DNA from: Bacteroidota bacterium
Lineage (GTDB): Bacteria > Bacteroidota > Bacteroidia > UKL13-3
Direction of reading: 5' to 3'
Assembly (NCBI GenBank): GCA_027484685.1
Contig: JAIXSO010000027.1
Location: 1 to 64,000 of the forward strand
DNA: 64,000 nucleotides
How positions within the stretch are numbered: position 1 is the stretch's first letter; each line of letters starts with the position of its first letter. The notes below the pieces were generated by a model. That model worked only from the letters and a program-made list of their open reading frames with translations. It did no database searches and had not been told where the DNA came from. Made by a program: the position numbers and the translations under genes. Shown in pieces: positions 18,142 to 47,527 of the stretch.

Positions 18142-18146
18142 TAATT

Positions 18147-23213: not shown

Positions 23214-23220
23214 ATACAAT

Positions 23221-24750: not shown

Positions 24751-24799
24751 GCAATTTCAAATTTTACAAATAAGTATATATTTGGTTTTTTTTACATTT

Positions 24800-26788: not shown

Positions 26789-27004
26789 AAGAGTTATTAA
26801 AACAAACTGAAATGCCCCATATTTTGTAAAACTTAAAAATTTTGGACAACTATAACTATTTGATTGTGTTTTTATTGTTATATTTAACCAATTATTTAAA
26901 TTGAAGTACTCACTTTTTTGTTTTTATATATAAAAAAAATAAGCTAATCTTAAAAAAGATTTTTAAAACCCAACTTGGGTAAATATATTAAGGAATTAAA
27001 TAGA

Positions 27005-27955
27005 ATGAAAGACCAACAAGAAAAAAATGACCTTTTGCAAATAATAAGGTTTATTTACATAAACTATAAAATTTATATAAAGTCAATAACAATCACATTG
27101 ATTTTAACTGTCGCAGTAACATTTTTATTACCTAAACAATATAAATCAACCGGAATTATTTTTCCAACATATTCTAATTCGCTAGAAGAAACATATAATA
27201 ACCCAATGTTTGGTTACGATATTGAGGCCGATAGAGTTTTACAGCTATTACAATCGCAAGAAATTCAAGACAGTATTACACGTAAATTTGATTTAGTGAC
27301 CTATTTTGAACTTGATACTTTAGATGAAAGATGGAGAGATGATTTAAGAAAAGAAATTATAGAAAATGTAAATTTTTCAAAAACACCTTTCATGTCAATC
27401 GAAATATCTGCAAAAACAAAAGACCCACAACTTTCAAGCGACCTAGTAAATACAATTATTGGTTTAATTGACCCAATAAGAAATCGGATATTAAAGCAGA
27501 ATATTATTGTGGCGCATAATTCAATTAGAAACGAATACCAAAATCAAAAGAATAACCTGGACTCGTTGGTAAATTTAATTAAAACCATGCGCGATGAATA
27601 TGGCAATCCCGCAATTAGTTTATTGGCAAATCAAGAATTTAATTTTGATAATAAAAGAACAGGTAACAATACCTTGTTGGAAGAAAAAATAGATAAATAT
27701 TTAATACAAAAAGTTATTTATAACGATATAAAAGTTAAATATGAGCGTGTAAAAACACAATTAGAAAGGCCTCTTCCTGGCATATACGTTATAAATCAGG
27801 GTATAAAATCAAATAAAAAAGTATCACCTTCATTTTTAATAAATATGGTAATTACTACTATATTAACAATTGTAATAGTTACTATGGTATTGGTTTTAAA
27901 AATTAAACTAAATGGTTTAAATGCTTACTTAAAGAATGATTCATTGAATGAATAA
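27005..27955 (+). CDS. Wzz/GumC-type chain-length determinant protein
   Basis: A 316-aa polysaccharide co-polymerase. Membrane segments lie near residues 30-48 and 280-302, enclosing a large, mostly helical periplasmic domain with a coiled-coil-like stretch (about 165-215). The start at ATG 27005 is preceded by AAGGAATTAAATAGA; a TTG at 26975 would add ten residues. No tyrosine-kinase domain is fused. It should set the length of the exported polysaccharide with the overlapping (8 nt) Wzy/ligase-like gene. Confidence 0.78.
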   Translation: MKDQQEKNDLLQIIRFIYINYKIYIKSITITLILTVAVTFLLPKQYKSTGIIFPTYSNSLEETYNNPMFGYDIEADRVLQLLQSQEIQDSITRKFDLVTYFELDTLDERWRDDLRKEIIENVNFSKTPFMSIEISAKTKDPQLSSDLVNTIIGLIDPIRNRILKQNIIVAHNSIRNEYQNQKNNLDSLVNLIKTMRDEYGNPAISLLANQEFNFDNKRTGNNTLLEEKIDKYLIQKVIYNDIKVKYERVKTQLERPLPGIYVINQGIKSNKKVSPSFLINMVITTILTIVIVTMVLVLKIKLNGLNAYLKNDSLNE

Positions 27956-30879: not shown

Positions 30880-32070
30880 TTGAGTTTTTTAAAATCAAAG
30901 CAATTTGTACGTGCTGCTAACATATTGGCATACAGTTCAAACTTGTTTTTACCTAATATAACAAATATACTTACTTCAGCCATTGTTATTAGGTTGTTGG
31001 TTCCTGAATGGTGGGGTCAAATTACTATTTTGCAACTATACATGTACCTAGGTAACCAGTTTTGTGCTTGGGGCAATAAAGATTCGTTAGTAAAATCGTT
31101 TAGTGAATACCCGTCCCAAAGCAAGTTTTTATGGATGGAATCATTCAGCAGTCGTTTGTTTTTACTATTGCCCGTATTGGCGGGAACATATTTTATTTCC
31201 AATGATCTAGTTGTTGTTTTCCATTTGTCAAGTTGGATTATTTTGCGGTATTTTTTACAATCTTTCGAGGCAATTATTTTATTTTCAAGAAAGTTTGCGG
31301 TAAGCATTGTTACCGAAATTATTGGATTGATTCTAGTTGTTTTTGCACTAGTTGTGTTTAAAAATTATTTGTCATTTCATGATGTTTTATTCATCATCAC
31401 CATCAGTTATTTAATAAGAACAATTATCCTTGTTGTATATTTTGGGGCATACTTTAATTTTGGTGTTTCGTTTAAACCCAATATTAAAAATTTATTGCCT
31501 TTCCTTCCATTTATGATGATAGGTTTTTCGGGGGTTTTACAACAAAAGTCGGATATGATAAGTGTTGCATGGTTGTCATCAAAAATAGAAATTGCACAAT
31601 ACCAAGTTTTCAGTAGTTTTTTGCTTTTCGCACAAGCAATACCAGCATTGGTAATTGGCCCCTACGTAAAAAACTTATACCGACTACCTATCTCAACCTA
31701 TTCAAAACTCCAGCGATTGTTTACCATTTATGGTTTTTTTGTTTCTTTAGCTTCCACCTTATTTATATACATTGCAATCAAAATTATATATCAGTTTGAC
31801 TTCCCTTCTACCATTTATTTTCTAGGCTTTTTAAACGGATGGTTTACTTACTTTTACATGTTTAAAATATTTTTGATGTTTAAAAAACAAAAGCAAAAGC
31901 AAGTGATGATTATAAACGCTGGCACAATTGTGCTTAATTTTGTTTTTTGTTTTGTTTTTATTCAATTATGGGGAATACAAGGCGGAATTTTAGCTGCTGC
32001 AATAACTCAACTATTCACTTATTTTATTTATAAGTATTATTTAAAAAACAATTTAGCTATAAAGTTATAG
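30880..32070 (+). CDS. Wzx-like polysaccharide flippase
   Basis: A 396-aa protein with about twelve membrane segments in the pattern of MATE-like/MVF O-antigen flippases. It begins with a TTG at 30880, preceded by AAGAGACAA; the first ATG in frame lies about 50 codons further and would remove the first membrane segments. It should move the lipid-linked repeat unit across the inner membrane for the Wzz and Wzy-like proteins. The next gene follows after 5 bp. Confidence 0.75.
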   Translation: MSFLKSKQFVRAANILAYSSNLFLPNITNILTSAIVIRLLVPEWWGQITILQLYMYLGNQFCAWGNKDSLVKSFSEYPSQSKFLWMESFSSRLFLLLPVLAGTYFISNDLVVVFHLSSWIILRYFLQSFEAIILFSRKFAVSIVTEIIGLILVVFALVVFKNYLSFHDVLFIITISYLIRTIILVVYFGAYFNFGVSFKPNIKNLLPFLPFMMIGFSGVLQQKSDMISVAWLSSKIEIAQYQVFSSFLLFAQAIPALVIGPYVKNLYRLPISTYSKLQRLFTIYGFFVSLASTLFIYIAIKIIYQFDFPSTIYFLGFLNGWFTYFYMFKIFLMFKKQKQKQVMIINAGTIVLNFVFCFVFIQLWGIQGGILAAAITQLFTYFIYKYYLKNNLAIKL

Positions 32071-32075
32071 TTACT

Positions 32076-33488
32076 ATGAAAAGGGAAAATTATTTTTATT
32101 TAAAAGTGGTATTTTTAACCATATTGTTTTTAATTGTTCGTATTGCCATGCAATTCGATGGACTTTACGGACAAGACGCCTATGAATACTTAAGATATAC
32201 CAATGAAATGTATTCGTTTTTTGTAAATGGTACTTTGCTTGGCGATTATTTTTGGGGTATGGGTTACCCCTTTTTTGGTTGTATATTTAATTTTTTTGTG
32301 CATGATGGAGCAGTGGCTTTGCAATTGGTTTCATTGGCAGCAGCATTTACAACGTGGATATACATGGATAAAATGCTTGCACTTATTTATCCTGAAGAAC
32401 CCAATTACATCATTACATTTTTGTTTTTAGTATTATCACCCATATTCATCATTCAAAGTTTTTTAGTAATGAGTGATATGTTGGCTTGTAGTTTTATAAT
32501 AATGGCTATTTATTATTTCATTCAATTTATTATTCAATCTAAAAACAAACATTGTATGCTAGGGGTAATTTTCAGTATGCTATCTTTACAAACTAGGTAT
32601 GCATCAATTGTTATTTTGGTATTATTTTTTGTTTTAGTATTTATCAAATTAGTAAAATCAAAAAACTATAAAATGATTTTGTTTTCCGTTTTGATTGGTA
32701 TTACCATTTCCCTTCCTCATATTTATATTAGAGCAAACAATAGCTTACAGTTCTTATCGCATAATTTCCTTACGGAATGGAATATATTGAATTTATTTAA
32801 AAACAGTTTTATCAGTATAAATGGGGAGTCACAGAGTAAGCTGATTAATTTGGTTTATTGTTTATATTCTTTTTTTCATCCGCAATTTTTTGCTTTTGGG
32901 TGTTTAATTTTTGTATTGATATTCATAAATAAATACAAATTTTTTATTGGAAACCGTTTTCAAAATATAATACTAATATCCATACTAACTTATGCCATTT
33001 TTTTGGCTGGTATTCCCTTTCAAAACAAACGATTTTTAGCACTTTCTTTCCCATTGGTAATTATTGTTTGTTACCCTGTTTTAAAACAAATACTATCAGC
33101 TACTAAATGGAGTAAAAGTTTAATAATGGGTGTTTTGGTGTTGCAATTTGGATTTATTGTTTACTTTGGAAAGCCTATTTACCAAAGAAGCAAATTAGAA
33201 AAGACAATTGCCAATGATTTAATTGCTTTTTCTGGTAAAACTATCTACATATTTGATATAGATCTTGCTTTAAAAGGAAGAAATGTTCCATTAGATTATC
33301 AGAATATTTGGTACAAGGAGTATAAAAATTTTAAAAAAGGGGCTTTGGTTTTGTTAAATGCAGCGCAGTTAGAAAAGCAATGGATTGGATTGAATCCATT
33401 AATTAACTGGAATAAACTAAAAACAAATGAAACCCTTCAGGTTTTAAAACCCTATGGTGATGGTTGGAATTTGTATGAAATTCAATAA
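32076..33488 (+). CDS. GT-C glycosyltransferase, GT39-like
   Basis: A 470-aa polytopic protein. The first loop has DGLYGQDAYEYLRY (about 28-41), an acidic motif placed as in GT39/PMT-type enzymes, then a GMGYPFFG loop typical of related GT-C proteins. About ten membrane segments and a 110-residue soluble tail follow. This is the third GT-C protein of the locus, so several polyprenyl-linked sugars may be used. The donor and acceptor are unknown. Confidence 0.72.
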   Translation: MKRENYFYLKVVFLTILFLIVRIAMQFDGLYGQDAYEYLRYTNEMYSFFVNGTLLGDYFWGMGYPFFGCIFNFFVHDGAVALQLVSLAAAFTTWIYMDKMLALIYPEEPNYIITFLFLVLSPIFIIQSFLVMSDMLACSFIIMAIYYFIQFIIQSKNKHCMLGVIFSMLSLQTRYASIVILVLFFVLVFIKLVKSKNYKMILFSVLIGITISLPHIYIRANNSLQFLSHNFLTEWNILNLFKNSFISINGESQSKLINLVYCLYSFFHPQFFAFGCLIFVLIFINKYKFFIGNRFQNIILISILTYAIFLAGIPFQNKRFLALSFPLVIIVCYPVLKQILSATKWSKSLIMGVLVLQFGFIVYFGKPIYQRSKLEKTIANDLIAFSGKTIYIFDIDLALKGRNVPLDYQNIWYKEYKNFKKGALVLLNAAQLEKQWIGLNPLINWNKLKTNETLQVLKPYGDGWNLYEIQ

Positions 33489-33614
33489 ATGAATATATTT
33501 ATAAAAATACCAACAATAGAAACTCAAAATAGATATACTTTTGAAGATTTCAAATTAAAACCTAATCCAATATTTTGTAGATTTTGAGACCTTATATTTT
33601 GATTCTAAACAATT

Positions 33615-34601
33615 ATGTACAATTTTCAAAAAATAATACAACGCATCAAGTGGAAATGGCATGATTTGCGTTGTGCTTTTGGATTTGGAAAGTCGCTTAC
33701 AACAGAAAAGAAAAGAGATGTAATATTGGTGTACCATGGCATAGATGCAATAGGTTCAACAGCCTACAATACTCGCTTTATTAGCGAGGCCATGTTTGAG
33801 AAACAAGTAGCCTATTTTGCGCAAAATACCCATGTGCTTTCTTTAGATGACTTTTTTTTAGAGCGGTTTTCACCAAACAAAATGAACTTAGCTTTAACCT
33901 TTGATGATGGCTATCAAAATAATTTAACAAGGGCCTTACCCATTTTGGAAAAATATAAAGTTCCTGCCACTTTTTTCATTACCGGTATTCATAGTTTAAA
34001 TCAAAAGGTTTTATGGCCTGATGTGATAGATTTGACCATTCCTTATTTGCCAAAAGAAATAGATATACTTGGTATTCGTTTTTGTAAGAAAAGAAAAAAT
34101 CAACTACTGGCTAAGGAGACAGGGGAAAATGTCAAGCAGTTTCTGCAAAAAAAATCACAAGCAGAAATAGAATTGGTTTTATCTCAACTCAATACAGACT
34201 ATCCTTTTCCTTTAAATGCATACCATCCGGATTATTATCAAACATTGACTGATTTGGAAATAAAGTTTTTAGGGCAAAATCCTTTAATAACAATTGGTGC
34301 GCATGGGGTATTTCATACCGATTTGACTGTACTTTCGGAGCAGGAATGCTTAAATGAACTACAAAAAAGTAAAGACTATTTGGAAAAACTAATTCAAAAG
34401 GAGGTAAGCGCCATTGCTTTTCCATTTGGAACCTATAACAAAAAAGTACTTATAGCGGCTGAAAAGGTTGGTTTTACACAACTCTTGGCTTTAGATAAAA
34501 TGGGTAATATTTCACACCCTCAAATGCGAGAACGTTTTGGTATAAATCCTTTTATTTCGTACCAAAACCAAATACTTGCCATTATAGAAGGGAAATACTA
34601 G
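33615..34601 (+). CDS. Polysaccharide deacetylase (CE4, NodB-like)
   Basis: A 328-aa protein with the NodB fold. TFDDGY holds the catalytic base Asp97 and metal ligand Asp98, and GAHGVFH supplies His230 and His234. AFPFGTYN near residue 275 is motif 4. No signal peptide or membrane anchor is seen, so it may act in the cytoplasm on a lipid-linked or nucleotide-linked sugar, as some O-antigen-locus members do. The next gene starts 1 bp after its stop. Confidence 0.85.
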   Translation: MYNFQKIIQRIKWKWHDLRCAFGFGKSLTTEKKRDVILVYHGIDAIGSTAYNTRFISEAMFEKQVAYFAQNTHVLSLDDFFLERFSPNKMNLALTFDDGYQNNLTRALPILEKYKVPATFFITGIHSLNQKVLWPDVIDLTIPYLPKEIDILGIRFCKKRKNQLLAKETGENVKQFLQKKSQAEIELVLSQLNTDYPFPLNAYHPDYYQTLTDLEIKFLGQNPLITIGAHGVFHTDLTVLSEQECLNELQKSKDYLEKLIQKEVSAIAFPFGTYNKKVLIAAEKVGFTQLLALDKMGNISHPQMRERFGINPFISYQNQILAIIEGKY

Positions 34602-34602
34602 C

Positions 34603-35547
34603 ATGACAGAAACATACAAAGAATATTCCATTGTTCGCCTTGATGCGAGTAATATTAAACACTTACAAGCCTTAAGTAAAGCTGTTTGGGGCACTGAGCC
34701 AGAAGAGGATATGCTTTACTTAAAGTATCATCATCCAGAATCAGCACATGCTTTTTTAGGATATTTTGCTTTTGATGCAGAAGGCAATGCAGCTTGTTTT
34801 CAAGGGGCAACTCGGTTATCAATTGCTTACCAAAATGAAATACAAATTGTTGCACAAAGCACCGATTCCATGACACACCCTCAACATACTGGCAAAGGTT
34901 TGTTTTATTATATAGCCAGCAAAACGTATCAGCTATGTAAAGATAATGGAATGATAATGGTAATGGGTTATGCCAACCAGAATTCATTACCAATAGTAAC
35001 TGGAAAAATTGGTTTTAAAGTAGCTGATTACTTGCAAGGCTATTCTATTGCGGTAGGTACTTTACCATTGGCAAAATTGAGTTTAAAAATTCCTTTCTTA
35101 AAAAAAATTTATCAGCCTTACCAGCATATTATCTTTTCAACCTTCAAAATCCCTTATCAAATCCCTTATTCTTTTTCTAAAGAGGAATATCCTGTTTTAT
35201 TGCGCGAGGATACCTTAATTGCTTACAAACAAGCAAGGGGTGTTTTTAGCCTGAAAATTGAAGGGACTCTATTATGGATAAAAGTTACCAGAGACTTATT
35301 TATTGGCGATATGAAATGCCCAAATGAAGAGGAATGGCTGAGGGTAATGAAAAAACTCAAACAATTGTGTTTTTGGGCAGGTATTCGCACCATTCATTTT
35401 CAATCTTGTAAAGGCACTAAAGAGCAGGCCTATTTCGAGAAATACTATCCCGGTTTTGAGTCATTACCCCTATGTTATTTAGATTTTGGCTATTCATTCC
35501 CAATTGAAAAATACAAAGCTACTTTTGGCGATATAGATATTTTTTAA
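34603..35547 (+). CDS. GNAT-family acyltransferase, 314 aa
   Basis: The N-terminal half is a GNAT fold: DASNIKHLQALSKAVW, GYFAFDAEGN, STDSMTHPQHTGKGLFYYIA (the acetyl-CoA loop in the HPxxxGKGLF form) and NQNSLPIVTGKIGF. The C-terminal half is unassigned. GNAT proteins of this HPxxxGKGLF type are frequent in capsule and lipid A-like loci, where they acylate amino sugars. Being next to the deacetylase suggests deacetylation followed by re-acylation of the same amino sugar. That is inference. Confidence 0.8.
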   Translation: MTETYKEYSIVRLDASNIKHLQALSKAVWGTEPEEDMLYLKYHHPESAHAFLGYFAFDAEGNAACFQGATRLSIAYQNEIQIVAQSTDSMTHPQHTGKGLFYYIASKTYQLCKDNGMIMVMGYANQNSLPIVTGKIGFKVADYLQGYSIAVGTLPLAKLSLKIPFLKKIYQPYQHIIFSTFKIPYQIPYSFSKEEYPVLLREDTLIAYKQARGVFSLKIEGTLLWIKVTRDLFIGDMKCPNEEEWLRVMKKLKQLCFWAGIRTIHFQSCKGTKEQAYFEKYYPGFESLPLCYLDFGYSFPIEKYKATFGDIDIF

Positions 35548-35714
35548 GATTGTGCATCTTGTTAATTCAAGCTGTTTTGATAGTTTTGATTTATAGGAGA
35601 TTGACACATTCTATTTATTTTGAATTATAAGACAACGTATCTTTCAATTATTTCTCGTTATTTTGTGTTTTAGCTTTAAATTGTTTGAATGATTAAATTG
35701 TATAGAATATTATT

Positions 35715-36980
35715 TTGAGTAAAGATTTATTTATAAAAAAAAACCAAACAACATTGTTTAGACAGTACTTTTTAGTGGCAAGCATCAATATACTTGTCCT
35801 GATAGCCCTACTTGAAGTAACATTGCGCCTAATCCCAGCAAAGTACACGGAATATCCTGCAAGAATAAATTACAATAGCGATAAAGAACTCGGGTATTTT
35901 CCTGAACCATTGCAAGATGAGAGCTATATTATAAATTGTGTTGAAAATAGCCATATAAAAACTAATGAAATTGGAATGCGAATCACCCCTTCGTTTCCAA
36001 ATAGTCCAATAAAAATAGCATTATTGGGCGATTCATTTTTGCATGGTTTAACCGTATCAGATAGCTTACATATGGCAACAAAACTTTCACTTTATAGTAA
36101 AACAGAAGTAATGAATGGGGGCGTTTGCGGTTATGGAACCTATCAAGAGCTTTTATTATGGCGAAAGTATATGAAGCCACAAAAGCCTAAAATAACCATT
36201 TTGTTCTTTTTTATGGATAACGACATTAGAGACAATCAATGTGCACTGGAGAGGGGCGAGGGAGAGTTTTATAGTCCATGTTGTATTGTAGACAGCAATA
36301 AGGTAAAAGAAGTAAACGATTTTGAAATTAGGAAAAATGAGTCAAAAAGTTTTAAGGGCTGGTTTAAAAAAAATAGTTTTACGTACAGAGCCATAAAGAA
36401 TTTATTGAAAAGTGATAAGCGTAAATTTACCGGAAAAGAATTTTTTGCTCAAACTAGTTTTGCATACAATCTTTATATACCTGGTAATCATAAGGTATGG
36501 GATGATGGATGGAAAATTACAGAATGGTCTTTGGCTACATTAAAAAGGGAATGTGATGAGGTGGGGAGTAAATTATTGGTTGTAAAAGTGCCTGGTCCTA
36601 TTCAATGGACTTATAACTGGAAAAAGGAAATAGCCAAACAAATAAAAGATGATTATTTACCTTTAGATTTTAATATTGATTATCCCAGTAATCGTTTTCA
36701 ATCTATCATTAATCAAACAGGAGTTGAAGTGCTTGATTTAAAACCAGAGTTTATTTATTATAGAGACCATCACAATCTTCAAGAACCTATATTTGGCTGG
36801 TGCTGCGATGCGCATTGGAATCCACTTGGACATCAACTGGCAGCCGATTTAGTGTATAATCATTTAGTTAAATTGGGGTGGTTAAATGGAACAATTCGCG
36901 AAAACACCAAATCACCAAAAGAAGTTTTGGGCGATAATATGTTTGAAGATATATATACTTGTCAGCAAATAAAATTTTAG
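35715..36980 (+). CDS. Membrane-anchored SGNH hydrolase, second copy
   Basis: A 421-aa protein starting at TTG 35715; no upstream ATG fits. One anchor lies at 19-41. The periplasmic SGNH domain has LLGDSF (Ser107), NGGVCGYGT, MDND (Asn169) and CCDAHWNPLGH (Asp365, His367). It resembles the AlgX/DltD-like acyl-handling SGNH group in layout, but no MBOAT acyltransferase is present in the window. Together with the gene at 29724 it suggests ester decoration of the exported glycan. Confidence 0.8.
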   Translation: MSKDLFIKKNQTTLFRQYFLVASINILVLIALLEVTLRLIPAKYTEYPARINYNSDKELGYFPEPLQDESYIINCVENSHIKTNEIGMRITPSFPNSPIKIALLGDSFLHGLTVSDSLHMATKLSLYSKTEVMNGGVCGYGTYQELLLWRKYMKPQKPKITILFFFMDNDIRDNQCALERGEGEFYSPCCIVDSNKVKEVNDFEIRKNESKSFKGWFKKNSFTYRAIKNLLKSDKRKFTGKEFFAQTSFAYNLYIPGNHKVWDDGWKITEWSLATLKRECDEVGSKLLVVKVPGPIQWTYNWKKEIAKQIKDDYLPLDFNIDYPSNRFQSIINQTGVEVLDLKPEFIYYRDHHNLQEPIFGWCCDAHWNPLGHQLAADLVYNHLVKLGWLNGTIRENTKSPKEVLGDNMFEDIYTCQQIKF

Positions 36981-37006
36981 CATAAAAGCCGAAGAAGCTT
37001 TAAATA

Positions 37007-38062
37007 ATGATTTCAACACCACGTCATATCGTTTTTGTTACCCCTGGTTTTGCAATAGATGAGGCTGATACAACAAGTGTGCCTTATTTGCAGGTGTATT
37101 TTAAAGCACTACAAGAGCAAGGTTTTAAAATAAGCATTATTTCATTGCATTATCCATCATACAATACTTTGTATAAATGGAACAATTGTAATGTTTATTC
37201 TTTTGCTAAATATGCCAAATGGCAAAAACCGTTACTTTGGCTAAAAGCAATTAAAACCATTATGGCCATAAATAAAAAGGAATCTATTAGTTTCTTACAT
37301 AGTTTTTGGTTGGGTGAGTGCGCTTTGGTTGGTCATTGGGCGGCAAAAATTATTAAAGTAAAACACTTAAATACTTTGATGGGACAAGATGTATTGGAAG
37401 GTAATAAATTTTGTAAAATACTTCCAATAAAAAGTATGAATTTGGTAACGCTTTCTCATTTTCACCAACAAGTTTTTTTTAAAAACTATCAATTAAAACC
37501 ACCCATTATTTTTTTTGGAACCAATAAAAAAGATGTGATAAAAAATGAAATCAAAACAATAGATTTTATTGGGGTTGGCTCACTAATTCCAATTAAAAAT
37601 TACAGTTTATTTATTGATGTAATACATGAAATAAATAAAACCATTCCCGTTTCAGCTATAATTATTGGAGAAGGTGAAGAATTTGATTTGTTGGCTAAGA
37701 AAATAAAAGATTTGAATCCCGATCCATCGGGAGATAATGTAATTAAATTATTAGGCTTAATAAGTAATGAAAAAGTTTTAGGGTATTTAGCCCAATCAAA
37801 AATATTATTGCATACCAGTAATCACGAAGGTTTTGGGATGATATTTGCTGAGGCTTTGCAACAAGAAACAATGGTTGTTTCTACTCCAGTTGGTAGCATT
37901 TTTGAATCGCCAAATGTGATGTTAGCTAACAATAAAAGCGACTTAGTAAAGTCATGCCAAACAATGCTCACTAAAACTTTTGACCCCAATTTTCCGAATC
38001 CTTTTGATATTGAAAAAACGATTGAAAACTATAATTATTATTACAAGGATTTTAAACAATAG
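37007..38062 (+). CDS. GT4 glycosyltransferase
   Basis: A 351-aa GT-B enzyme. The N-terminal domain has FVTPGF and a glycine-rich start; the C-terminal domain has IGVGSLIPIKNY, then IIGEGEE, then HTSNHEGFGMIFAEAL with the E-x7-E pair (Glu274, Glu282). It transfers a sugar from a nucleotide donor in the cytoplasm. Residues 237-244 (NPDPSGDN) are encoded over a perfect TCCCGATCCATCGGGA palindrome that looks like an insertion. Confidence 0.88.
   Translation: MISTPRHIVFVTPGFAIDEADTTSVPYLQVYFKALQEQGFKISIISLHYPSYNTLYKWNNCNVYSFAKYAKWQKPLLWLKAIKTIMAINKKESISFLHSFWLGECALVGHWAAKIIKVKHLNTLMGQDVLEGNKFCKILPIKSMNLVTLSHFHQQVFFKNYQLKPPIIFFGTNKKDVIKNEIKTIDFIGVGSLIPIKNYSLFIDVIHEINKTIPVSAIIIGEGEEFDLLAKKIKDLNPDPSGDNVIKLLGLISNEKVLGYLAQSKILLHTSNHEGFGMIFAEALQQETMVVSTPVGSIFESPNVMLANNKSDLVKSCQTMLTKTFDPNFPNPFDIEKTIENYNYYYKDFKQ
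37717..37732 (+). repeat. TCCCGAT-nn-ATCGGGA palindrome inside a coding sequence
   Basis: This 16-bp palindrome differs only in the central two bases from those in the intergenic repeats at 4769-4784 and 8018-8033. In the glycosyltransferase it falls in a surface loop between a helix and the VIKLLG strand, where length varies among GT4 enzymes. The reading frame is kept. Confidence 0.7.
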
Positions 38063-38107: not shown

Positions 38108-39190
38108 ATGAATTTTATAAATACACTTAAATCAATCAATGCGAATGCATATCCCCAGCATTTATTTTATTCGCCAGAATGGCTGGTATTGGGAGTAAAC
38201 AATATTTGCAATCTGCATTGTAAAATGTGCGATGTGGGTAATGGAAATGCAGAAAGTAATTTTTCACAAAACTTGGTTGGAAGCAGACCATTACACATGC
38301 CCATGGAACTTATAAAAACCATATTTGATCAGGCAGCTTTATACTTTCCAAAAGTTAAAATAGGATATGCTTTTACAGAGCCTTTGGTTTATTTGCATTT
38401 AGAAGAATCGTTACAATACGCAAAAGAAAAAAAGCTTTATACATCCGTTACCACCAATGCGCTTACCCTACCACAAAAGGCTGAAATGCTTTGTGAAAAA
38501 GAAGTAAACGACATTTTTATTTCGTTGGACGGAACGGAAGAAATACACAATTATATTAGGGGGAATAAAAACTCTTTCCAAAAGGCTGTAGAAGGAATTG
38601 AAAAACTTTTATCCAAAAATAAACACCCTGATATTTCAGTTTTTTTTGTCATTACCGAATGGAATATTGGCAATATGAAAGCCTTTGCTGATTTTTTTGG
38701 CAAATACCCATTAAAGCAATTGGGATTTATGCATACCAATTTTACGCCATTGCATATAGCTGAAAAACACAATGAAACCTACGGTAATACTTATCATTCA
38801 ACGCTTTCTAATACAACAGAAATAGATATAGACAAAATGAATTTAGATGAATTGTTCCATCAAATTTCTCAAATAAAATCAGCATCATATCCTTTTCCTG
38901 TAAGTTTTTCGCCCGCAATCAACACAAAGGAGGAGCTTAAGCAATTTTATTTAAAGCCAGAGATTTTGATGGGAAAAGGATGCAATGATGTTTCTCGCAA
39001 TATCATGATTAAATCGAATGGAACGGTAATTCCAGCACATGGCAGGTGTTACAATTTAGAAATTGGCAATATATACCAAGAAAATTTAAAGGACATTTGG
39101 AATAGCAAAGTGATTAGTAAGTTTAGGAGTGATTTAAAGAATGCAGGTGGTTTGTTGCCTGCTTGCAGTAGGTGTTGTAGTGCGTTTTAA
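38108..39190 (+). CDS. Radical SAM enzyme with SPASM-like C-terminus
   Basis: A 360-aa enzyme. The SAM-binding cluster motif is CNLHCKMC (Cys34, Cys38, Cys41). A TNAL segment (about 117) and SLDGTEEIHN near 140 fit MoaA/PqqE-type radical SAM folds. The C-terminal cysteines (GKGCND, GRCYN, CSRCC) fit a SPASM or twitch domain with auxiliary Fe-S clusters. No short precursor-peptide gene is visible nearby, so a RiPP role is unsupported; members also act on sugars and cofactors. It opens the co-directional radical SAM block. Confidence 0.88.
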   Translation: MNFINTLKSINANAYPQHLFYSPEWLVLGVNNICNLHCKMCDVGNGNAESNFSQNLVGSRPLHMPMELIKTIFDQAALYFPKVKIGYAFTEPLVYLHLEESLQYAKEKKLYTSVTTNALTLPQKAEMLCEKEVNDIFISLDGTEEIHNYIRGNKNSFQKAVEGIEKLLSKNKHPDISVFFVITEWNIGNMKAFADFFGKYPLKQLGFMHTNFTPLHIAEKHNETYGNTYHSTLSNTTEIDIDKMNLDELFHQISQIKSASYPFPVSFSPAINTKEELKQFYLKPEILMGKGCNDVSRNIMIKSNGTVIPAHGRCYNLEIGNIYQENLKDIWNSKVISKFRSDLKNAGGLLPACSRCCSAF

Positions 39191-39319
39191 TTATTTCATA
39201 AAACTCTTACGGTATAAAATAGTTTCTTGAACCAAATTTGTGGTTAGCCTTGGGAAAATATTTTTAAAATGTTTATCATTGTCAGAGTTAAGAAATGTTG
39301 TTGTAACTTTAAATTATTA

Positions 39320-40732
39320 ATGAAGAAAACGGTTGTTTTATATAATCCTTATGCTGTATTTTATACTATGCCTTTAGCATTGATTGCAATAGGGTCTTAT
39401 TTAGACACTGATAAATACAAAATAGAAATTATAGATGCAAGGATTGAGAAAAACCCACTTGAAAAAATAAAACAAGCTTTATCAAATAACGGTATTTGTT
39501 TTGCTACCACCGTGTTAACAGGCGCACCCATAAAAGATGCACAAAAAATTTCACAAGAGGTAAAAAAAATGTTTCCTCAAATTCCAGTGGTTTGGGGAGG
39601 TTGGCATCCATCATTGTTTCCGGAACAAACATTGAAAGAACCGTCAATTGATGTAGTGGTAAAAGGACAAGGAGAAATTATCTTTAAAGAATTATTGGAA
39701 CGTTTTGAAACCAATACTTCATTAGATGGATTGCAAGGAATTAGCTATAAAAATAAGGAAAACCAAGTCGTTACCAATCCAGAAAGGACCATGGTTGACA
39801 TCAATGATTTTCCAGCATTTAATTATGATCTGATTGATGTTCCCGCTTACATGAAGTTAAGTGGCAGAAAACAATTGGATTATATTTCCTCTCAGGGTTG
39901 CCGGTTTAGGTGTTCGTTTTGTGCCGATCCGTTTATGTATAAAAGAGGGTGGTATGGTTTTAGCGCAGAAAGAATGGGCGATGAAATAGAAGCCCTTTGG
40001 AAAAAGTATAAATTTGAGCATGTTCATTTTCAAGATGAAACCTTTTTTACCAATAGCAAAAGGGTAAAAGCCATAGCAGAAGAGTTTATTAAAAGAAAAC
40101 TTCCTATATCTTGGTTTGGAACCATGCGTGCTGACCAAGGAGTAAGATTGGATGAAGAAGTTTGGGAAATTTGTAAAAAATCGGGTTTAGAAAAAGTAAT
40201 GATTGGAATGGAAGCGGGCTCCCAAGAAATGCTTGATTATATTCAAAAAGATATTAAACTTCATCATATTTATGACTCTGCTGCCAAATGCATTAAATAC
40301 GATATAGGTATTAACTTCAGCATAATCATAGGTTTTCCAGACGAGTCGGAACAAAGCGTTAATGCAACACTTGCTATGGTTAAGGAGCTTAGGAAAATGA
40401 GCAGTAAATTTAACATGGGCATATTTTATTATAAACCATATCCAGGCAATAAAATTGCAGATGAACTAACGACTAAAGGCTTTAAATTTGCAACCACACT
40501 TGAGGAGTGGAGCGATTTTGACTACGTAAGTACCAAGAAAAGCGACTGGCTTAGTGAAACCCAAATAAAAGAAATTGAAAACTTTAAGTTTTACCAACAA
40601 TTGGCATTTAATAGACGAGAAATCCCGGTTCTTAAAAACATTGCTAAATGGCGAATAGAAAAAAAAATGTACGCTTTTCCTATAGAACGAAAATTAAAGG
40701 AATGGCTAATGCCAACACCTAGGATGGCATAA
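39320..40732 (+). CDS. Cobalamin-binding-type radical SAM enzyme 1
   Basis: The start at ATG 39320 gives 470 aa; an in-frame ATG 51 bp upstream adds a cysteine-rich stretch with no similarity. Residues 1-135 form the B12-binding Rossmann-like domain (PVVWGGWHPSLFPEQ, then VVVKGQGE), without the DxHxxG histidine. The radical SAM cluster is CRFRCSFC (Cys194, Cys198, Cys201), followed by FQDETFF and GMEAGSQ. Class members catalyse radical methylation or ring and carbon-bond rearrangements. It is first of four related but distinct enzymes here. Confidence 0.88.
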   Translation: MKKTVVLYNPYAVFYTMPLALIAIGSYLDTDKYKIEIIDARIEKNPLEKIKQALSNNGICFATTVLTGAPIKDAQKISQEVKKMFPQIPVVWGGWHPSLFPEQTLKEPSIDVVVKGQGEIIFKELLERFETNTSLDGLQGISYKNKENQVVTNPERTMVDINDFPAFNYDLIDVPAYMKLSGRKQLDYISSQGCRFRCSFCADPFMYKRGWYGFSAERMGDEIEALWKKYKFEHVHFQDETFFTNSKRVKAIAEEFIKRKLPISWFGTMRADQGVRLDEEVWEICKKSGLEKVMIGMEAGSQEMLDYIQKDIKLHHIYDSAAKCIKYDIGINFSIIIGFPDESEQSVNATLAMVKELRKMSSKFNMGIFYYKPYPGNKIADELTTKGFKFATTLEEWSDFDYVSTKKSDWLSETQIKEIENFKFYQQLAFNRREIPVLKNIAKWRIEKKMYAFPIERKLKEWLMPTPRMA

Positions 40733-40768
40733 TACCTAATTTGTAAATTATATATAAAACAAACTAAA

Positions 40769-42280
40769 TTGACAAATTTTACTAAAAACGAAGTTATTAT
40801 TTTTAATCCCAAAAGTGCTGATATAAAATACAGAATACCTAATTCTGTTATTCAAGTAGCAGCATCAATAGATGGGGATTATGATTGGCTAATTATTGAT
40901 GGAAATAGAGAAAAAGACCCATTAAATAAAATATTAGATAGTATAACTCCAGCTACAAAGTATTTTGGATTATCGGTTATGCCTGGCCCTCAGTTGCGAC
41001 AAGCAATTCCTTTTTCAAAATTTATAAAGCAAAAATTCCCCCATATTATAGTTATTTGGGGCGGCTATTTTGCATCTAATCAATACAAAGTTGTACTTGA
41101 ATCGGGTTATATTGATTATGTAGTAAATGGCCCTGGTGATTATGCATTTCCTGCCTTGTTAAAAGCATTAGACAATGATTTGCCTGTTGATGAAATACAA
41201 AATTTGATATTTATAAAGGATAAGCAAATAATAAAAACACCTAAAGGCGAACTTGTAAATTACGATGATTTAAAACCAATGCCATATTTAAAATTTGATA
41301 CTATGTATAGTATTGAAAAGTATTTAGTAAAAACATATTTAGGAAAAAGAACATTTGGATATCATAGTAGCTTTGGCTGCCCTTTTACTTGTTCTTTTTG
41401 TGCTGTGGTCCCTATTTACAATGCTAAATGGAAAGGGATGTCTGCTGCCAATATTTACAAGGATATTTTATTCGCAAAAAACAAATGGAATATTGATTCA
41501 ATAGAATTTCACGATAATAATTTTTTTGTTTCGGAAAGAAGAGTCATTGAGTTTTGTAATTTGGTTAAGAATGATAATATTATTTGGTGGGGCGAAGGGC
41601 GAATAGATACCATTAATAAATACAAAGATGAAACCTTAGCTTTAATGCGAGAGTCGGGTTGTAAAATGATATTTTTTGGAGCCGAAACAGGTAATGATGC
41701 AGTGCTTAAAAAAATGGATAAAGGTGGAACTCAAACGGGAAAACAAATTTTAGAATTTGCTGCTCGCATGAAAAAATTTGATATTATTCCTGAATACTCA
41801 TTTGTACTTGGAACACCAGCAGACACTGAGCAAGAAGTGATGGCCCAAATAGATGAAGACATTGAATTTATTAAAAAAGTTAAAGCAATAAACCCTGCTA
41901 CAGAAATAATTATTTATGTATACAGCCCTGTACCAACCGAGGGGTCAGATATGTATAATAAAGTATTGGCAAGTGGTTTTAAGTTTCCTGAAACATTAGA
42001 AGATTGGTTGGAAAATGAATGGAAAAATTTTGACTTACGTAAAAACCCGCTAACACCATGGTTAACTCCTAAAATGGTGGATAAAATAAAAAATTTCGAA
42101 ACAGTTTTAAACGGATATTATCCTACAGTTTCAGATGTGAGAATGGGAAATATTAAAAGAGGTATTATCAAGCAAATTTCAAAATGGAGATACCATTACA
42201 ATGTATTTAAACTGCCTTATGAAATAAAGTTATTACATAAAGTTTGGAAATACCGTCAACCAGAAATTGAAGGATTTTAA
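40769..42280 (+). CDS. Cobalamin-binding-type radical SAM enzyme 2
   Basis: A 503-aa protein starting at TTG 40769; no nearby ATG fits before the conserved NEVIIFNPKSA. The B12-type domain includes VIWGGYFASN and VVNGPGDYA (the usual G-E replaced by G-D). The cluster motif is CPFTCSFC (Cys204, Cys208, Cys211), with FHDNNFFVSE and FFGAETGND downstream. It differs from enzyme 1 in most of its sequence, so the two are probably not redundant. The stop and the next start share one base (TAATG). Confidence 0.87.
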   Translation: MTNFTKNEVIIFNPKSADIKYRIPNSVIQVAASIDGDYDWLIIDGNREKDPLNKILDSITPATKYFGLSVMPGPQLRQAIPFSKFIKQKFPHIIVIWGGYFASNQYKVVLESGYIDYVVNGPGDYAFPALLKALDNDLPVDEIQNLIFIKDKQIIKTPKGELVNYDDLKPMPYLKFDTMYSIEKYLVKTYLGKRTFGYHSSFGCPFTCSFCAVVPIYNAKWKGMSAANIYKDILFAKNKWNIDSIEFHDNNFFVSERRVIEFCNLVKNDNIIWWGEGRIDTINKYKDETLALMRESGCKMIFFGAETGNDAVLKKMDKGGTQTGKQILEFAARMKKFDIIPEYSFVLGTPADTEQEVMAQIDEDIEFIKKVKAINPATEIIIYVYSPVPTEGSDMYNKVLASGFKFPETLEDWLENEWKNFDLRKNPLTPWLTPKMVDKIKNFETVLNGYYPTVSDVRMGNIKRGIIKQISKWRYHYNVFKLPYEIKLLHKVWKYRQPEIEGF

Positions 42281-42939
42281 TGGGAAAAATTAAAAAAAGA
42301 ATCATTCGAACGGTTGGATACTTTGTGCTTTGGTATTTAAGAAAAGACAGGTATTATTCTCACGAAGGCACTAAGATACTTGTGAAGAAAGGTGTTTTTC
42401 ATCCGGGATTTTTTTTTAGTACCAAGTTGTTGCTTTCTACCCTTGCTTCATTTATTATTAAAAACACGTATTTTTTAGAATTAGGAGCAGGTAGTGGTCT
42501 TATTTCATTTATTGCAGCAAAAAGAGGGGCCATTGTTACTGCTACCGATATTAGTCCAATTGCGATTAAAGGATTGGTTGAAAATAATATACAATTGAAA
42601 ACTAACCTAACCATAATTGAAAGCGATTTGTTTGATAAAATTCCAAATCAAGTATTTGATTTTATAATTATAAATCCCCCATATTATCCTAAAAACCCCA
42701 AAAACGATTCGGAAAAGGCATGGTTTTGTGGCGAAAACTTTGAGTATTTTGAAAAACTTTTCTATCAATTAAACAACTTTATTAAATCGGAAACCACTGT
42801 AATGATGTCTCTTTCGGAAGATTGTGACTTTGAGAACATAAAAAATATAGCCATAAAAAATAATTTATTGATGGAGGAACTTAGAAATAAAATGACATTA
42901 TGGGAGCGTAATTATATTTTTAATATTGTATCAAAATAA
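42280..42939 (+). CDS. Class I SAM methyltransferase, PrmC/HemK-like
   Basis: A 219-aa methyltransferase. Motif I is LELGAGSGL (about 67-75), the acidic loop is ATDISP and the catalytic motif is INPPYY, the NPPY signature of enzymes that methylate amide or amino nitrogens in a planar group. It lacks the N-terminal substrate domain of real PrmC (about 70 residues), so release-factor methylation is unlikely. Its overlap with a radical SAM gene ties it to that pathway. Confidence 0.8.
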   Translation: MGKIKKRIIRTVGYFVLWYLRKDRYYSHEGTKILVKKGVFHPGFFFSTKLLLSTLASFIIKNTYFLELGAGSGLISFIAAKRGAIVTATDISPIAIKGLVENNIQLKTNLTIIESDLFDKIPNQVFDFIIINPPYYPKNPKNDSEKAWFCGENFEYFEKLFYQLNNFIKSETTVMMSLSEDCDFENIKNIAIKNNLLMEELRNKMTLWERNYIFNIVSK

Positions 42940-42963
42940 AAAATATTCATATTTTCGACACTA

Positions 42964-43899
42964 ATGAATACTACCTCTTCATCAAAGTTAACGCTATTAC
43001 AAAGTTGCATTGTTAAAACACTCATTTATTTTGATGTGTTTAGCTACCCCTTAACAGTTGGTGAGTTGTTTAAATATATGCAGATTGAGCTAAAAAATGA
43101 AACGGCATTTTTATTCGAGTTAAATAGCTTATGTGAAAAGCAATTTGTATATAATCTTAATGGATATTATTCGCTAAAAAACCAACATGAACAGGTAGAA
43201 AAAAGGTTAACTGGAAATAAATACGCTGAAACATTTGTTCCAAAAGCATTTAAAAATGCCAAACTAATTGGATCGTTTCCTTTTGTACGAGGTGTTGGCA
43301 TATCTGGCTCTTTATCTAAAGGTTATATGGACGAAAGTGGCGATATTGACTTTTTTATTATTACAGAACCAGAAAGATTATGGATAGCAAGAACCCTATT
43401 AATTTTGTACAAAAAGATATTTTTATTGAATAGTAGAAAATATTTTTGTGTTAATTATTTTATTGATACCAACCATTTGGAAATTCCTGACAAAAACATT
43501 TTTACTGCTACCGAAATTTTAACTTTAATTCCTGCTTATAATTCAAACTTATTTAAAGATTTTTTGGATATAAATAATTGGGCAATGAACTATTTGCCTA
43601 ATAAACCTTTGGCGCAAAATGAAGCTAGTAAAATGAGACATCATTTTATTAAAAATAAAGTGGAAAAAATATTAAACAATAAACTAGGAGATTATTTTGA
43701 TGCTTTGTTTATGAAACTAACACTAAGAAAATGGAAAAGCAAGTTTAAATACATAGAGTCAATTGATTTTGAGCTTGCCATGAGAACACGAAAGTACGTT
43801 TCTAAGCACCATCCACAAGGGTTTCAGCAGCGAGTACTTTCAAAAATTGAAGAGAAAATTAGTGAATTTGAATTTAAAAACAACCTTAAACTAAACTGA
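42964..43899 (+). CDS. Pol-beta-fold nucleotidyltransferase with N-terminal helical domain
   Basis: A 311-aa protein. Residues 10-75 look like a winged-helix or helical region (YFDVFSYPLTVGELF). The nucleotidyltransferase core has SGSLSKG (Gly115, Ser116) and GDIDFFII (Asp127, Asp129), the GS and DxD of the Pol-beta fold. It would transfer a nucleoside monophosphate to a protein or small molecule. Its place between a methyltransferase and a radical SAM enzyme suggests activation or tagging of a pathway intermediate. Function unknown. Confidence 0.75.
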   Translation: MNTTSSSKLTLLQSCIVKTLIYFDVFSYPLTVGELFKYMQIELKNETAFLFELNSLCEKQFVYNLNGYYSLKNQHEQVEKRLTGNKYAETFVPKAFKNAKLIGSFPFVRGVGISGSLSKGYMDESGDIDFFIITEPERLWIARTLLILYKKIFLLNSRKYFCVNYFIDTNHLEIPDKNIFTATEILTLIPAYNSNLFKDFLDINNWAMNYLPNKPLAQNEASKMRHHFIKNKVEKILNNKLGDYFDALFMKLTLRKWKSKFKYIESIDFELAMRTRKYVSKHHPQGFQQRVLSKIEEKISEFEFKNNLKLN

Positions 43900-43906
43900 G
43901 CAAATA

Positions 43907-45361
43907 ATGGCCGATATTTTAATAACACATTCTTATTTACTAAAGTTTGATCCAAAGCAGTTTAAGGCACAACAACCTTATCCGCCTTTAGCTACTTTAT
44001 TTGGCTCTGCAGTTTTACTAAACGAAAATCATAGTTTGGTTTTTCATGACATGATGTTTGCTGATAAAGCAAACGAAATAGAAAAAATTATAACTGAAAA
44101 CAAGCCAAAACACTTTGTTATTTACGATGATGGTTTTAATTATTTAACCAAAATGTGTTTAACCAATATGCGCGATGCTGCTTTTGAAATGGCGAGTATT
44201 GCCAAAAAGTATGGCTGTAAGGTTATTGTTTCTAGCTCTGATTCTACCGACCATAGTCATGATTATTTAAACTCAAATTTTGATTTTGTAATTGTTGGCG
44301 AGGCAGAACAAACCCTGAAGGAATTAATTAATGCATTAGATAATAATTTAGTTGATTATACCGCCATTAATGGATTACGCTTTAAGTTAAACAATGAAAT
44401 AATAGAAACAACTAAACGTGAAAATTTAAAAGATTTAGATTTGTTGCCCATGCCAGCATGGCAATTACTAGATATTAAACCATATAAAACAGCTTGGTTA
44501 AAAAGCAAAGGTTTTTTCTCTATTAACATAGCTACTACGCGCGGTTGTCCTTATAAGTGTAATTGGTGTGCCAAACCAATTTATGGCAATAGGTATAATT
44601 CTCGCTCACCTCAAAATGTGGTGAATGAGTTATTGTTTTTAAAAGCACATTTTGGTTTTGACCATATTTGGTTTTGCGATGATATATTTGGTTTAAAGCC
44701 AAATTGGGTAACAGAGTTTGCAAATTTAATTGAGCAAAATAATTTAAAAATAAAATACAAAATCCAATCTCGGGTTGATTTATTGTTAGAGGAAAGTTTA
44801 GCATCAAATACCAAGGAAACACAAATAGAAGCTTTAGCACGCTCGGGCTGCGATGAAGTTTGGGTTGGAGCAGAAAGTGGCTCGCAAAAAATTTTAGATG
44901 CCATGGATAAAGGTACCAAAATTGAGCAAATAGCAAAAGCAACACAATTAATGAAACAACATCATATAAAACCATGTTTCTTTTTGCAGTTTGGCTATTT
45001 AAATGAAACTTATGATGATATAAAACTAACTTTAAAAATGTTATTTGAACTAATGCCGCATGATATAGGTATTTCAGTTTCATATCCATTACCAGGAACT
45101 AAGTTTTACAATATAGTAAAAGAACAAATGAAAGGGAAAACCAACTGGACTGACTCTGACGAATTAGCCATTATGTTTAATGCCACCTACCCTGCCGACT
45201 TTTATAGAAAGTTACAACGTTTTGTGCATTATAAATTCAGACAAAAACAAGCTTTTCTTGCACTTAAAAACACAGGAAGTATTGCCAAAGGAACTAGTTT
45301 GTTTTATAGATTTCCTCAAACATTATTAGCAGAATGGAGTATAAAAAAGTATGTTAACTAA
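43907..45361 (+). CDS. Cobalamin-binding-type radical SAM enzyme 3
   Basis: A 484-aa enzyme. The B12-type domain (1-145) has PYPPLATLFGSAVL and VIVGEAEQT. The cluster motif is CPYKCNWC (Cys214, Cys218, Cys221), with WFCDDIFG and WVGAESGSQ downstream. It and enzyme 4 share CPYxCxWC, a WFxDDxF segment and WxGAESGSQK, so they form a subgroup apart from enzymes 1 and 2. It overlaps the next methyltransferase gene by 11 nt. Confidence 0.88.
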   Translation: MADILITHSYLLKFDPKQFKAQQPYPPLATLFGSAVLLNENHSLVFHDMMFADKANEIEKIITENKPKHFVIYDDGFNYLTKMCLTNMRDAAFEMASIAKKYGCKVIVSSSDSTDHSHDYLNSNFDFVIVGEAEQTLKELINALDNNLVDYTAINGLRFKLNNEIIETTKRENLKDLDLLPMPAWQLLDIKPYKTAWLKSKGFFSINIATTRGCPYKCNWCAKPIYGNRYNSRSPQNVVNELLFLKAHFGFDHIWFCDDIFGLKPNWVTEFANLIEQNNLKIKYKIQSRVDLLLEESLASNTKETQIEALARSGCDEVWVGAESGSQKILDAMDKGTKIEQIAKATQLMKQHHIKPCFFLQFGYLNETYDDIKLTLKMLFELMPHDIGISVSYPLPGTKFYNIVKEQMKGKTNWTDSDELAIMFNATYPADFYRKLQRFVHYKFRQKQAFLALKNTGSIAKGTSLFYRFPQTLLAEWSIKKYVN

Positions 45362-46145
45362 TGCAAGTTTTGATGCTTTGGCCAATACTTACGATACTGA
45401 TTTTACCCATAGTTTAATTGGTTCCATGCAGCGTAAAGTTGTTTGGAAATTTACCGAAGAGCAATTGATAGGTAAAAAGGAGTTGAGTATTCTTGAAATT
45501 AATTGCGGAACAGGTGAAGATGCTGTATGGCTTGCAAAAAAAGGGCATCAAGTTTTAGCTACAGATATAAGTAAGGATATGGTGGACATTGCAGAGCAAA
45601 AAGCCAATCAACAGCAATTGAAAGTTAAAACAGTGGTATGTAGTTTTTCTGATTTAGAGAATAAGCTAGTTGGTCAAAAATTTGATGTAATTTTCTCCAA
45701 TTTTGGTGGTTTAAATTGTGCCAATGCCAATGAACTAAAGCAGCTCAATATAGATTTTAGCAAATTGTTAAAGCCAAATGGAAAGTTAATTATGGTTTTG
45801 CTTGGCAAAAAATGTTTTCTCGAAAAGTTGTATTTTTTATTTCGTTTTGATTTTAAAAAAATGAACAGGAGGAAAAAGGAAGCATCTGCTTATTTAAGCC
45901 CGGATAATTTTATAAGTACTTGGTATTTTAATTACCAAGAGATTAGAGGATTATTCACCCAATTTAACCTAACTAAAAAAAAGCCTATTGGGTTATTTAT
46001 TCCGCCATCGTATTTAGAACCATTGCTTCAAAAAAATAAACTATTTTTACCCATTATTAAATTATTGGATAAAACTTTTGGTAACATAAGTTTTTTGGCT
46101 AATTATGGTGACCATATTTTTATTACACTAGAAAAGAAACAATGA
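45351..46145 (+). CDS. Class I SAM methyltransferase, UbiE-like
   Basis: A 264-aa protein. Motif I is LEINCGTGEDA (about 46-56), then VLATDISKDMVDIA, then FDVIFSNFGGLN. This is the Methyltransf_11/25 arrangement used for small molecules. The C-terminal 100 residues carry a basic patch (KKMNRRKKEA) and hydrophobic segments, so it may work at the membrane. Overlaps both neighbours (11 nt and 4 nt), so three genes are co-translated. Confidence 0.83.
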   Translation: MLTNASFDALANTYDTDFTHSLIGSMQRKVVWKFTEEQLIGKKELSILEINCGTGEDAVWLAKKGHQVLATDISKDMVDIAEQKANQQQLKVKTVVCSFSDLENKLVGQKFDVIFSNFGGLNCANANELKQLNIDFSKLLKPNGKLIMVLLGKKCFLEKLYFLFRFDFKKMNRRKKEASAYLSPDNFISTWYFNYQEIRGLFTQFNLTKKKPIGLFIPPSYLEPLLQKNKLFLPIIKLLDKTFGNISFLANYGDHIFITLEKKQ

Positions 46146-47527
46146 AAGTAGTACTTACACACGGATATTTTATAAACGAAGATGCCAAGGAGCAAGAAAT
46201 TATGCGCCCTTACATTCCACTTGGTATTTTGTACATATCTGCTTGGTTGCAAAAACACCAATACGATAATGAAATATTCGACTCTACTTTTCAAAGTTTT
46301 GAAAAACAAAAGACATTTATTTTAGCACATAAACCCAATGTAATTGGGCTTTACACTAATTTAATGACTAAACTAAATGTACTGCGTTTAATTCAATTTG
46401 TAAAAAGCGAAGCCAGTTTAAGTCACACCAAAATTGTACTTGGTGGTCCTGAAGTTCGTAACCATGTAAAAAACTTTTTAACCCATGGTGCTGATTATAT
46501 AGTACTTGGCGAAGGTGAAGAAACCATGTTAGAATTGGTTCAGTTTTTAGATGGAAAAACCAATAAAACCATTGAAGAAATAGAAGGAGTTTCGTTTTTA
46601 AATGAAAAGGGTGAAGTGGTTCAAAATAAAGAAAGAGCTAAATTAAAAGAATTAAGTGATTTGCCATTTCCCAACCGCAGTAAAGTTAACCTACAACTTT
46701 ATTTTGATGCTTGGAAACAAAAACATGGAACAAGTGCTATTTCTATTAACACCATGCGAGGCTGCCCTTACAGTTGCAAATGGTGCAGCCGTGCTGTTTA
46801 TGGGCAAAGTTACAGACGCAGAAGTGCAAAAAATGTGGTTGATGAGATAGAATGGATTCAAAGCAATTATGAAGTTGATTCTGTTTGGTTTGTAGATGAT
46901 GTGTTTACAGTGAGCCATAAATGGCTTAAGGAATTTAACGAAGAACTGCAAAGCCGCAATATTTCAATGCCTTACGAGTGCATAACCCGAGCTGATAGAA
47001 TGAACGAAGCCGTAATTTTAGACTTAAAAGCAAGTGGTTGTTTTAGGGTTTGGATTGGTGCAGAAAGTGGTTCGCAAAAAGTAATTGATTTAATGGATAG
47101 GCGTGTAGATGTGAACCAAGTTCGCAATATGATTCAATTGGCTCAATTACATGGAATACAGGCTGGTACTTTTATTATGGTGGGTTATCCTGGCGAAACC
47201 GAAGCCGATATTTTTGAAACAGTCAATCATTTAAAAGTATCAAACCCTGATATTTTTACCATTACAGTAGCTTATCCCATTAAAGGAACGCCACTTTACC
47301 AAGAAGTAGAGGATAGGTTTATTGAAGACTTGCCTTGGGAAACCAGCACTGATAGAGATATTGATTTTAAACGCACCTATTCGCGCAAGTATTATAATTA
47401 TGCAGTAAGTATGATTGTAAACGAGGTAAATGCTTTTAAAGCACAGCAAAAAGGCGAAATTTTAAAAATGACTAAGGCTAAAGTAAAGGCAGTTATTCAA
47501 AGAAGCCGAATGTATTTGGCTAAGTAA
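46142..47527 (+). CDS. Cobalamin-binding-type radical SAM enzyme 4
   Basis: A 461-aa enzyme. The B12-type domain has YIPLGILYISAWLQ, IVLGGPEV and VLGEGEET, again without DxHxxG. The cluster motif is CPYSCKWC (Cys208, Cys212, Cys215), then RRRSAKNVVDEI, then WFVDDVF and WIGAESGSQK. It is the last gene of the block. It is followed by about 100 bp without a gene and then an unrelated lipoprotein, so the operon probably ends here, although no clear terminator hairpin is seen. Confidence 0.88.
   Translation: MKVVLTHGYFINEDAKEQEIMRPYIPLGILYISAWLQKHQYDNEIFDSTFQSFEKQKTFILAHKPNVIGLYTNLMTKLNVLRLIQFVKSEASLSHTKIVLGGPEVRNHVKNFLTHGADYIVLGEGEETMLELVQFLDGKTNKTIEEIEGVSFLNEKGEVVQNKERAKLKELSDLPFPNRSKVNLQLYFDAWKQKHGTSAISINTMRGCPYSCKWCSRAVYGQSYRRRSAKNVVDEIEWIQSNYEVDSVWFVDDVFTVSHKWLKEFNEELQSRNISMPYECITRADRMNEAVILDLKASGCFRVWIGAESGSQKVIDLMDRRVDVNQVRNMIQLAQLHGIQAGTFIMVGYPGETEADIFETVNHLKVSNPDIFTITVAYPIKGTPLYQEVEDRFIEDLPWETSTDRDIDFKRTYSRKYYNYAVSMIVNEVNAFKAQQKGEILKMTKAKVKAVIQRSRMYLAK

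Follow-up and report, generated by a model that had tools for sequence, protein, structure and literature searches.

Eight consecutive open reading frames, here called genes A to H, occupy positions 38108-47527 of the window (the whole 64,000-nucleotide stretch of DNA analysed). All lie on the plus strand, and all were recovered at the coordinates of the initial annotation, which had described a run of same-strand genes with overlaps or short gaps. The intergenic distances from A to H are, in order, 78, 36, -1, 24, 7, -11 and -4 nt. Gene A is preceded by a GT4 glycosyltransferase gene (37007-38062), with 45 nt between them, so that the block runs directly on from glycan genes. The gene located 3′ of H begins 99 nt on and is unrelated to the block. 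The features of the region are as follows.

20378-29432, plus strand: further upstream glycan genes, encoding a UbiA-type DPPR synthase-like protein, a DprE1-like oxidase, a HAD phosphatase, two membrane glycosyltransferase-like proteins, a Wzz-like protein and an O-antigen ligase/polymerase (PDB matches; NCBIfam scores below cut-off)
30880-38062, plus strand: contiguous upstream glycan genes with short gaps, encoding flippase-like, GT-C-like (32076), polysaccharide deacetylase (33615), GNAT (34603), SGNH (35715) and GT4 (37007) proteins (open reading frames; Pfam Polysacc_deac_1, Acetyltransf_9, Glycos_transf_1)
38108-39190, plus strand: gene A, SPASM-type radical SAM protein, sometimes found with C-D (Pfam Radical_SAM and SPASM)
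39269-40732, plus strand: gene B, B12-binding radical SAM protein, sporadic member (Pfam B12-binding, 51.2 bits, and Radical_SAM)
40769-42280, plus strand: gene C, B12-type radical SAM protein, opening the conserved C-D pair (Pfam)
42280-42939, plus strand: gene D, MTS/PrmC-like methyltransferase with an NPPY motif, paired with C (Pfam MTS)
42964-43899, plus strand: gene E, winged helix and Pol-beta-fold nucleotidyltransferase, most widespread member (AlphaFold fold)
43907-45361, plus strand: gene F, radical SAM protein with a cobalamin-domain fold, core member (Pfam Radical_SAM and model)
45351-46145, plus strand: gene G, UbiE-like SAM methyltransferase (Pfam Methyltransf_25, 65 bits)
46142-47527, plus strand: gene H, B12-binding radical SAM protein, paralogue of F with 32% identity (Pfam)

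The base composition of the A-H block resembles that of its surroundings, and scans for sigma-70 promoters and terminators gave signals no higher than those of shuffled sequence. Further upstream, at 17794-19501, genes identified by eye as HipA-like are split into two halves, between which an ORF of the 23S-intervening-sequence type (four-helix) fits tightly, with short overlaps.

Domain content of the block

Pfam searches bore out the domain calls made earlier from the sequence: SPASM in A, B12-binding and Radical_SAM in B and H, and the PrmC-like and UbiE-like methyltransferases D (MTS) and G (Methyltransf_25). The claim of four B12-type enzymes is also supported. Radical_SAM is above cut-off in all of B, C, F and H, and the CxxxCxxC cluster motif is kept in most of their orthologues, whereas the B12-binding domain exceeds its Pfam cut-off in B and H, is borderline in C (30.5 bits for a cut-off of 32.1; 32.7 in a six-frame scan) and is recognized in F by fold only. 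None of the block enzymes reached the curated cut-off of any named NCBIfam family; assignment to a known pathway was therefore rejected, in agreement with the earlier remark that the block fits no standard class. For the named families BchE, HpnJ, PhpK, HpnR and AprD4 the best score was 165 bits, with cut-offs of 481-650, and the matches of gene A were all far under cut-off.

A conserved E-F-G-H operon and a separate C-D pair

We searched 395 genomes of the class Bacteroidia for E, F and C, using a threshold of E <= 1e-100 for orthologues of F and C. Gene E was present in 62/395 genomes (leaving out a 63rd match at E 3e-4) and F in 57, with 56 genomes harbouring both (Fisher test, 6e-60, phylogeny ignored); six genomes of this sample possess E without F. 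Gene C was detected in 40 genomes, 39 of which also have E and F, and H in 30 of 50 E-positive genomes as compared to 0 of 20 E-negative controls. These genes thus show a nested dependency: E has the widest distribution, F depends on it, and H and C are hardly ever found without F.

Gene order was then compared in 115 distinct loci, 85 of them long. E and F are adjacent on one strand in 90/99 loci, F and G are adjacent in 77/84 and G and H in 57/64, and C and D adjoin in 26 of the 27 loci having both. By contrast, A was found in only 8/85 long loci and B in 4/85. The E-F(-G) arrangement was also found outside Bacteroidia, still within the phylum. We conclude that E-F-G-H is a conserved operon, that C-D is a second, separately moving pair and that A and B are occasional passengers. 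The earlier proposal that these genes form a system recurring in other Bacteroidota is therefore upheld for E-F-G-H, by the genomes sharing E and F and by the gene order kept across the phylum, but the eight genes do not behave as one unit. The same two observations lead us to reject a chance neighbourhood: the block is no accidental pile-up and contains a conserved module.

Carriers are spread over many families with a patchy distribution. They include Tenacibaculum, Kordia, Aquimarina, Winogradskyella and Flavivirga, as well as many metagenome-assembled genomes from lakes, sludge and the sea. Pairwise distances in F, H and C are strongly correlated with each other (r 0.64-0.93), the correlation of E with F is lower (0.56), and the correlation with RpoB distances is 0.78 for C, 0.46 for F and 0.32 for E (n=12-30 in both cases). 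These values are consistent with exchange having contributed to the spread of the module, E and G being the members that evolve most rapidly. Spread by plasmids was rejected, since a tblastn search of a plasmid collection with E returned zero matches.

Several additional genes accompany the module elsewhere. Another SAM methyltransferase, about 250 aa long and absent from the block of the window, occurs in 19 long loci (family c7; L153 and 18 others) and lies directly 3′ of H in 13 of the 14 loci having both. A different SPASM radical SAM protein lies beside F in some loci lacking H (for example L160:11798-12844). An amidohydrolase related to aminofutalosine/5′-deoxyadenosine deaminases is located beside a methyltransferase at L160:16131-17288, with similar genes in L056, L067 and L161; it might recycle 5′-deoxyadenosine from the radical SAM enzymes. 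Finally, a CxxCH lipoprotein of about 385 aa is encoded beside the module in 22/85 long loci (family c5; L044 and 21 others). It has no Pfam match and was unmatched in the genome of the window, in a search run without a positive control, so that it is not a required part.

Gene E encodes a winged-helix protein with a nucleotidyltransferase fold

The description of E as a Pol-beta-fold nucleotidyltransferase is supported by its fold, the Pfam NTP_transf_2 score being just below threshold (19.9 bits for a cut-off of 21). In the AlphaFold model (pLDDT 92), a VIA-align comparison placed winged helices at about residues 7-77 and the ANT(4′) match at residues 87-206. This second part adopts an ANT/MNT-type fold, with a Z score of about 8 over 110 residues for ANT(4′). 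The family keeps a GSL.K..D.D motif which, along with the fold, corresponds to the Pol-beta-fold signature hG[GS]...Dx[DE]. Catalysis by E is nevertheless not certain, because the strand that usually carries the third catalytic carboxylate bears an invariant asparagine (Asn164); Glu184 is also invariant and might substitute for the carboxylate. Neither sequence nor profile searches of the PDB detected a relative of E.

Radical SAM enzymes and their relatives

The sequence of F matches Radical_SAM only in Pfam, with B12-binding unmatched. However, its AlphaFold model displays a Rossmann domain N-terminal to the radical SAM barrel, and the closest PDB folds are the cobalamin-binding OxsB and TsrM, followed by MgmA and AprD4. 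F is thus predicted by its model to fold as a radical SAM enzyme with a cobalamin-binding domain, of the OxsB/TsrM/MgmA/AprD4 type. Its nearest relative within its own genome is H. AprD4 is the second-best PDB sequence match for both F and H, and the fourth distinct enzyme among the fold matches of F. AprD4 has the same overall fold, yet is not known to use cobalamin; a cobalamin domain in F, H, B and C is therefore no proof of cobalamin use.

Scores with the NCBIfam AprD4 model are only 50-80 bits (cut-off 500). The families scoring nearest, all below cut-off, are BchE, HpnJ and PhpK. Since these act on porphyrins, hopanoids and phosphinates, respectively, the sequences of the radical SAM enzymes do not by themselves point to sugars.

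The module is associated with surface glycan genes

The gene families located upstream of the block recur, rearranged, in other module loci: GT4, GT-C-like, deacetylase together with GNAT, O-antigen polymerase and Wzz. Of 77 long loci containing F, 53 include one or more of the recurring glycan families; as only repeatedly seen families were counted, this figure is a minimum. In a raw tally of 79 first flanking genes, made with no random background, the commonest Pfam families were GT2, GT1, ABC, MFS and Wzz. As in surface-glycan loci, genes for glycosyltransferases, Wzz, polymerase and flippase thus recur beside the module.

In the six genomes of the class sample that possess E without F, E lies directly 3′ of a PF02397 sugar transferase gene in two loci (L169, L170), is fused to a PF02397 sugar-phosphate transferase in a third (L171) and adjoins Wzz- and O-antigen-ligase-like genes in the other three (L172, L173, L174). 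In three genomes outside the class (L223-L225), E makes up the C-terminal portion of a GT4 glycosyltransferase, and in L223 the next gene after this fusion is F. These two independent kinds of E-glycosyltransferase fusion are the strongest clue to function. On the other side, E stands alone or far from obvious glycan genes in some genomes, and in many Flavobacteriaceae the upstream neighbours are unrelated housekeeping genes; we count both observations against a role in glycan tailoring. Overall, the link of the module to glycan genes, already suspected from the window, is well supported.

Within 20378-23213, proteins match decaprenyl-phosphate phosphoribosyltransferase (8j8j, E 3e-27) and DprE1 (4aut, E 1e-72), next to a HAD-IB phosphatase-like protein. 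By their sequences, these genes resemble a route to polyprenyl-phosphate ribose/arabinose donors, which indicates that the locus of the window uses polyprenyl-linked sugars. The module is not generally accompanied by this route: one other module locus (L085) had a clear match to the DprE1-like oxidase nearby. D-arabinan is a possible product of a Bacteroidota glycan locus carrying such DPPR-synthase-like, DprE1-like and HAD genes.

Proposed function of the module

The explanation that we favour, with modest confidence, is that the A-H block serves to tailor a lipid-linked surface glycan: F, H and C would carry out radical chemistry, D and G methylation, and E would act on a glycan intermediate. 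We infer the substrate, the order of the steps and the type of reaction as follows. The upstream genes would assemble a glycan on polyprenyl-linked intermediates, with donors of the polyprenyl-phosphate-ribose/arabinose type, membrane glycosyltransferases, a flippase and a polymerase. E would act on, or dock to, the lipid-linked sugar, nucleotidyl transfer being the most likely activity. The lipid-linked sugar or its lipid would undergo radical modification first by F and next by H, with C (and B) acting separately; this would most likely be a C-methylation but possibly a deoxygenation or a rearrangement. G and D would add ordinary SAM-derived methyl groups. A bolder version, which we consider rather unlikely, is that E nucleotidylates the lipid-linked sugar (with AMP, for example) before cobalamin radical chemistry by F, H and C; Bacteroidota would then have, across the phylum, a pathway that gives their surface glycans a sugar with a branched carbon skeleton or some other radical modification.

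It could be instead that the radical SAM enzymes modify a lipid, polyprenyl or anchor, and not the sugar, like HpnJ and the ladderane and tetraether-type enzymes. B, C, F and H do score best with lipid and tetrapyrrole families (HpnJ, 105-141 bits; rSAM_ladder_B12, up to 134 bits), all far below the cut-offs, and the glycan locus employs polyprenyl carriers; however, no ketosynthase, ACP or terpene cyclase gene is present in the window or recurs in other loci, and E is fused to sugar transferases, which makes a lipid target improbable to us. Protein-level fusions of E to PGT and GT4 enzymes are also more in keeping with catalysis or docking than with regulation. The N-terminal winged helix of E, and its fold matches to MNT antitoxins as well as ANT enzymes, could indeed suggest a regulator or a stress-type nucleotidyltransferase controlling the locus, leaving the chemistry to F-G-H only, but the GS..D.D motif is conserved and we give this interpretation little credit.

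Runs of radical SAM and methyltransferase genes are typical of clusters for natural products, SPASM enzymes are often peptide maturases, and certain loci have no nearby glycan genes; the module might thus yield a free natural product or a RiPP, the glycan genes being there by coincidence. This is hard to reconcile with the recurring glycan genes and the E-glycosyltransferase fusions, and we regard it as very unlikely. As noted previously, no RiPP precursor is visible: gaps in the block do not exceed 78 nt and cannot accommodate such a gene, no RiPP family reaches its NCBIfam cut-off or comes near it, and the SPASM gene A occurs in just 8/85 long loci. A RiPP maturation system was accordingly rejected.

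Because the module travels beside sugar-polymer genes through Bacteroidota, it probably confers an uncommon chemical modification on a sugar of the cell surface. If this is true, many marine, freshwater and sludge Bacteroidota bear a surface sugar modification missed by ordinary glycan analysis. E and F together provide clear marker genes for the module, and the nested gene dependency makes the order of the pathway testable.

Comparison with known systems

No description of this cassette was found in the open-access literature and, as far as could be found, the combination of radical SAM enzymes with a nucleotidyltransferase is so far undescribed. The surroundings of the module are those of Wzx/Wzy-type polysaccharide loci of Bacteroidota, with flippase, Wzz, polymerase/ligase, glycosyltransferase, deacetylase and acetyltransferase genes, but no report of this radical SAM module in such loci was found in the open literature. 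E residues 87-206 share the fold of ANT/MNT-type nucleotidyltransferases, from which E differs by its extra winged helix, its C-terminal helical part, the fusion of its relatives to glycosyltransferases and the absence of PDB sequence matches.

OxsB, TsrM, TokK, CysS and MgmA include the closest folds to F and the sequence matches of F and H. They have in common with F a Rossmann-type N-terminal domain and a CxxxCxxC radical SAM core, but differ in gene context and share only 15-19% identity with it in structural alignments; we know of none from a surface-glycan locus. Radical carbon chemistry on sugars is known from a few aminoglycoside antibiotics, where AprD4 and the gentamicin methylases GenK and GenD1 act on sugars. 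GenK is a C-methylase of a sugar carbon (PMC4039129). AprD4 and GenK/GenD1 belong, unlike the module, to antibiotic (aminoglycoside) pathways, but AprD4 resembles F and H and works on a sugar ring.
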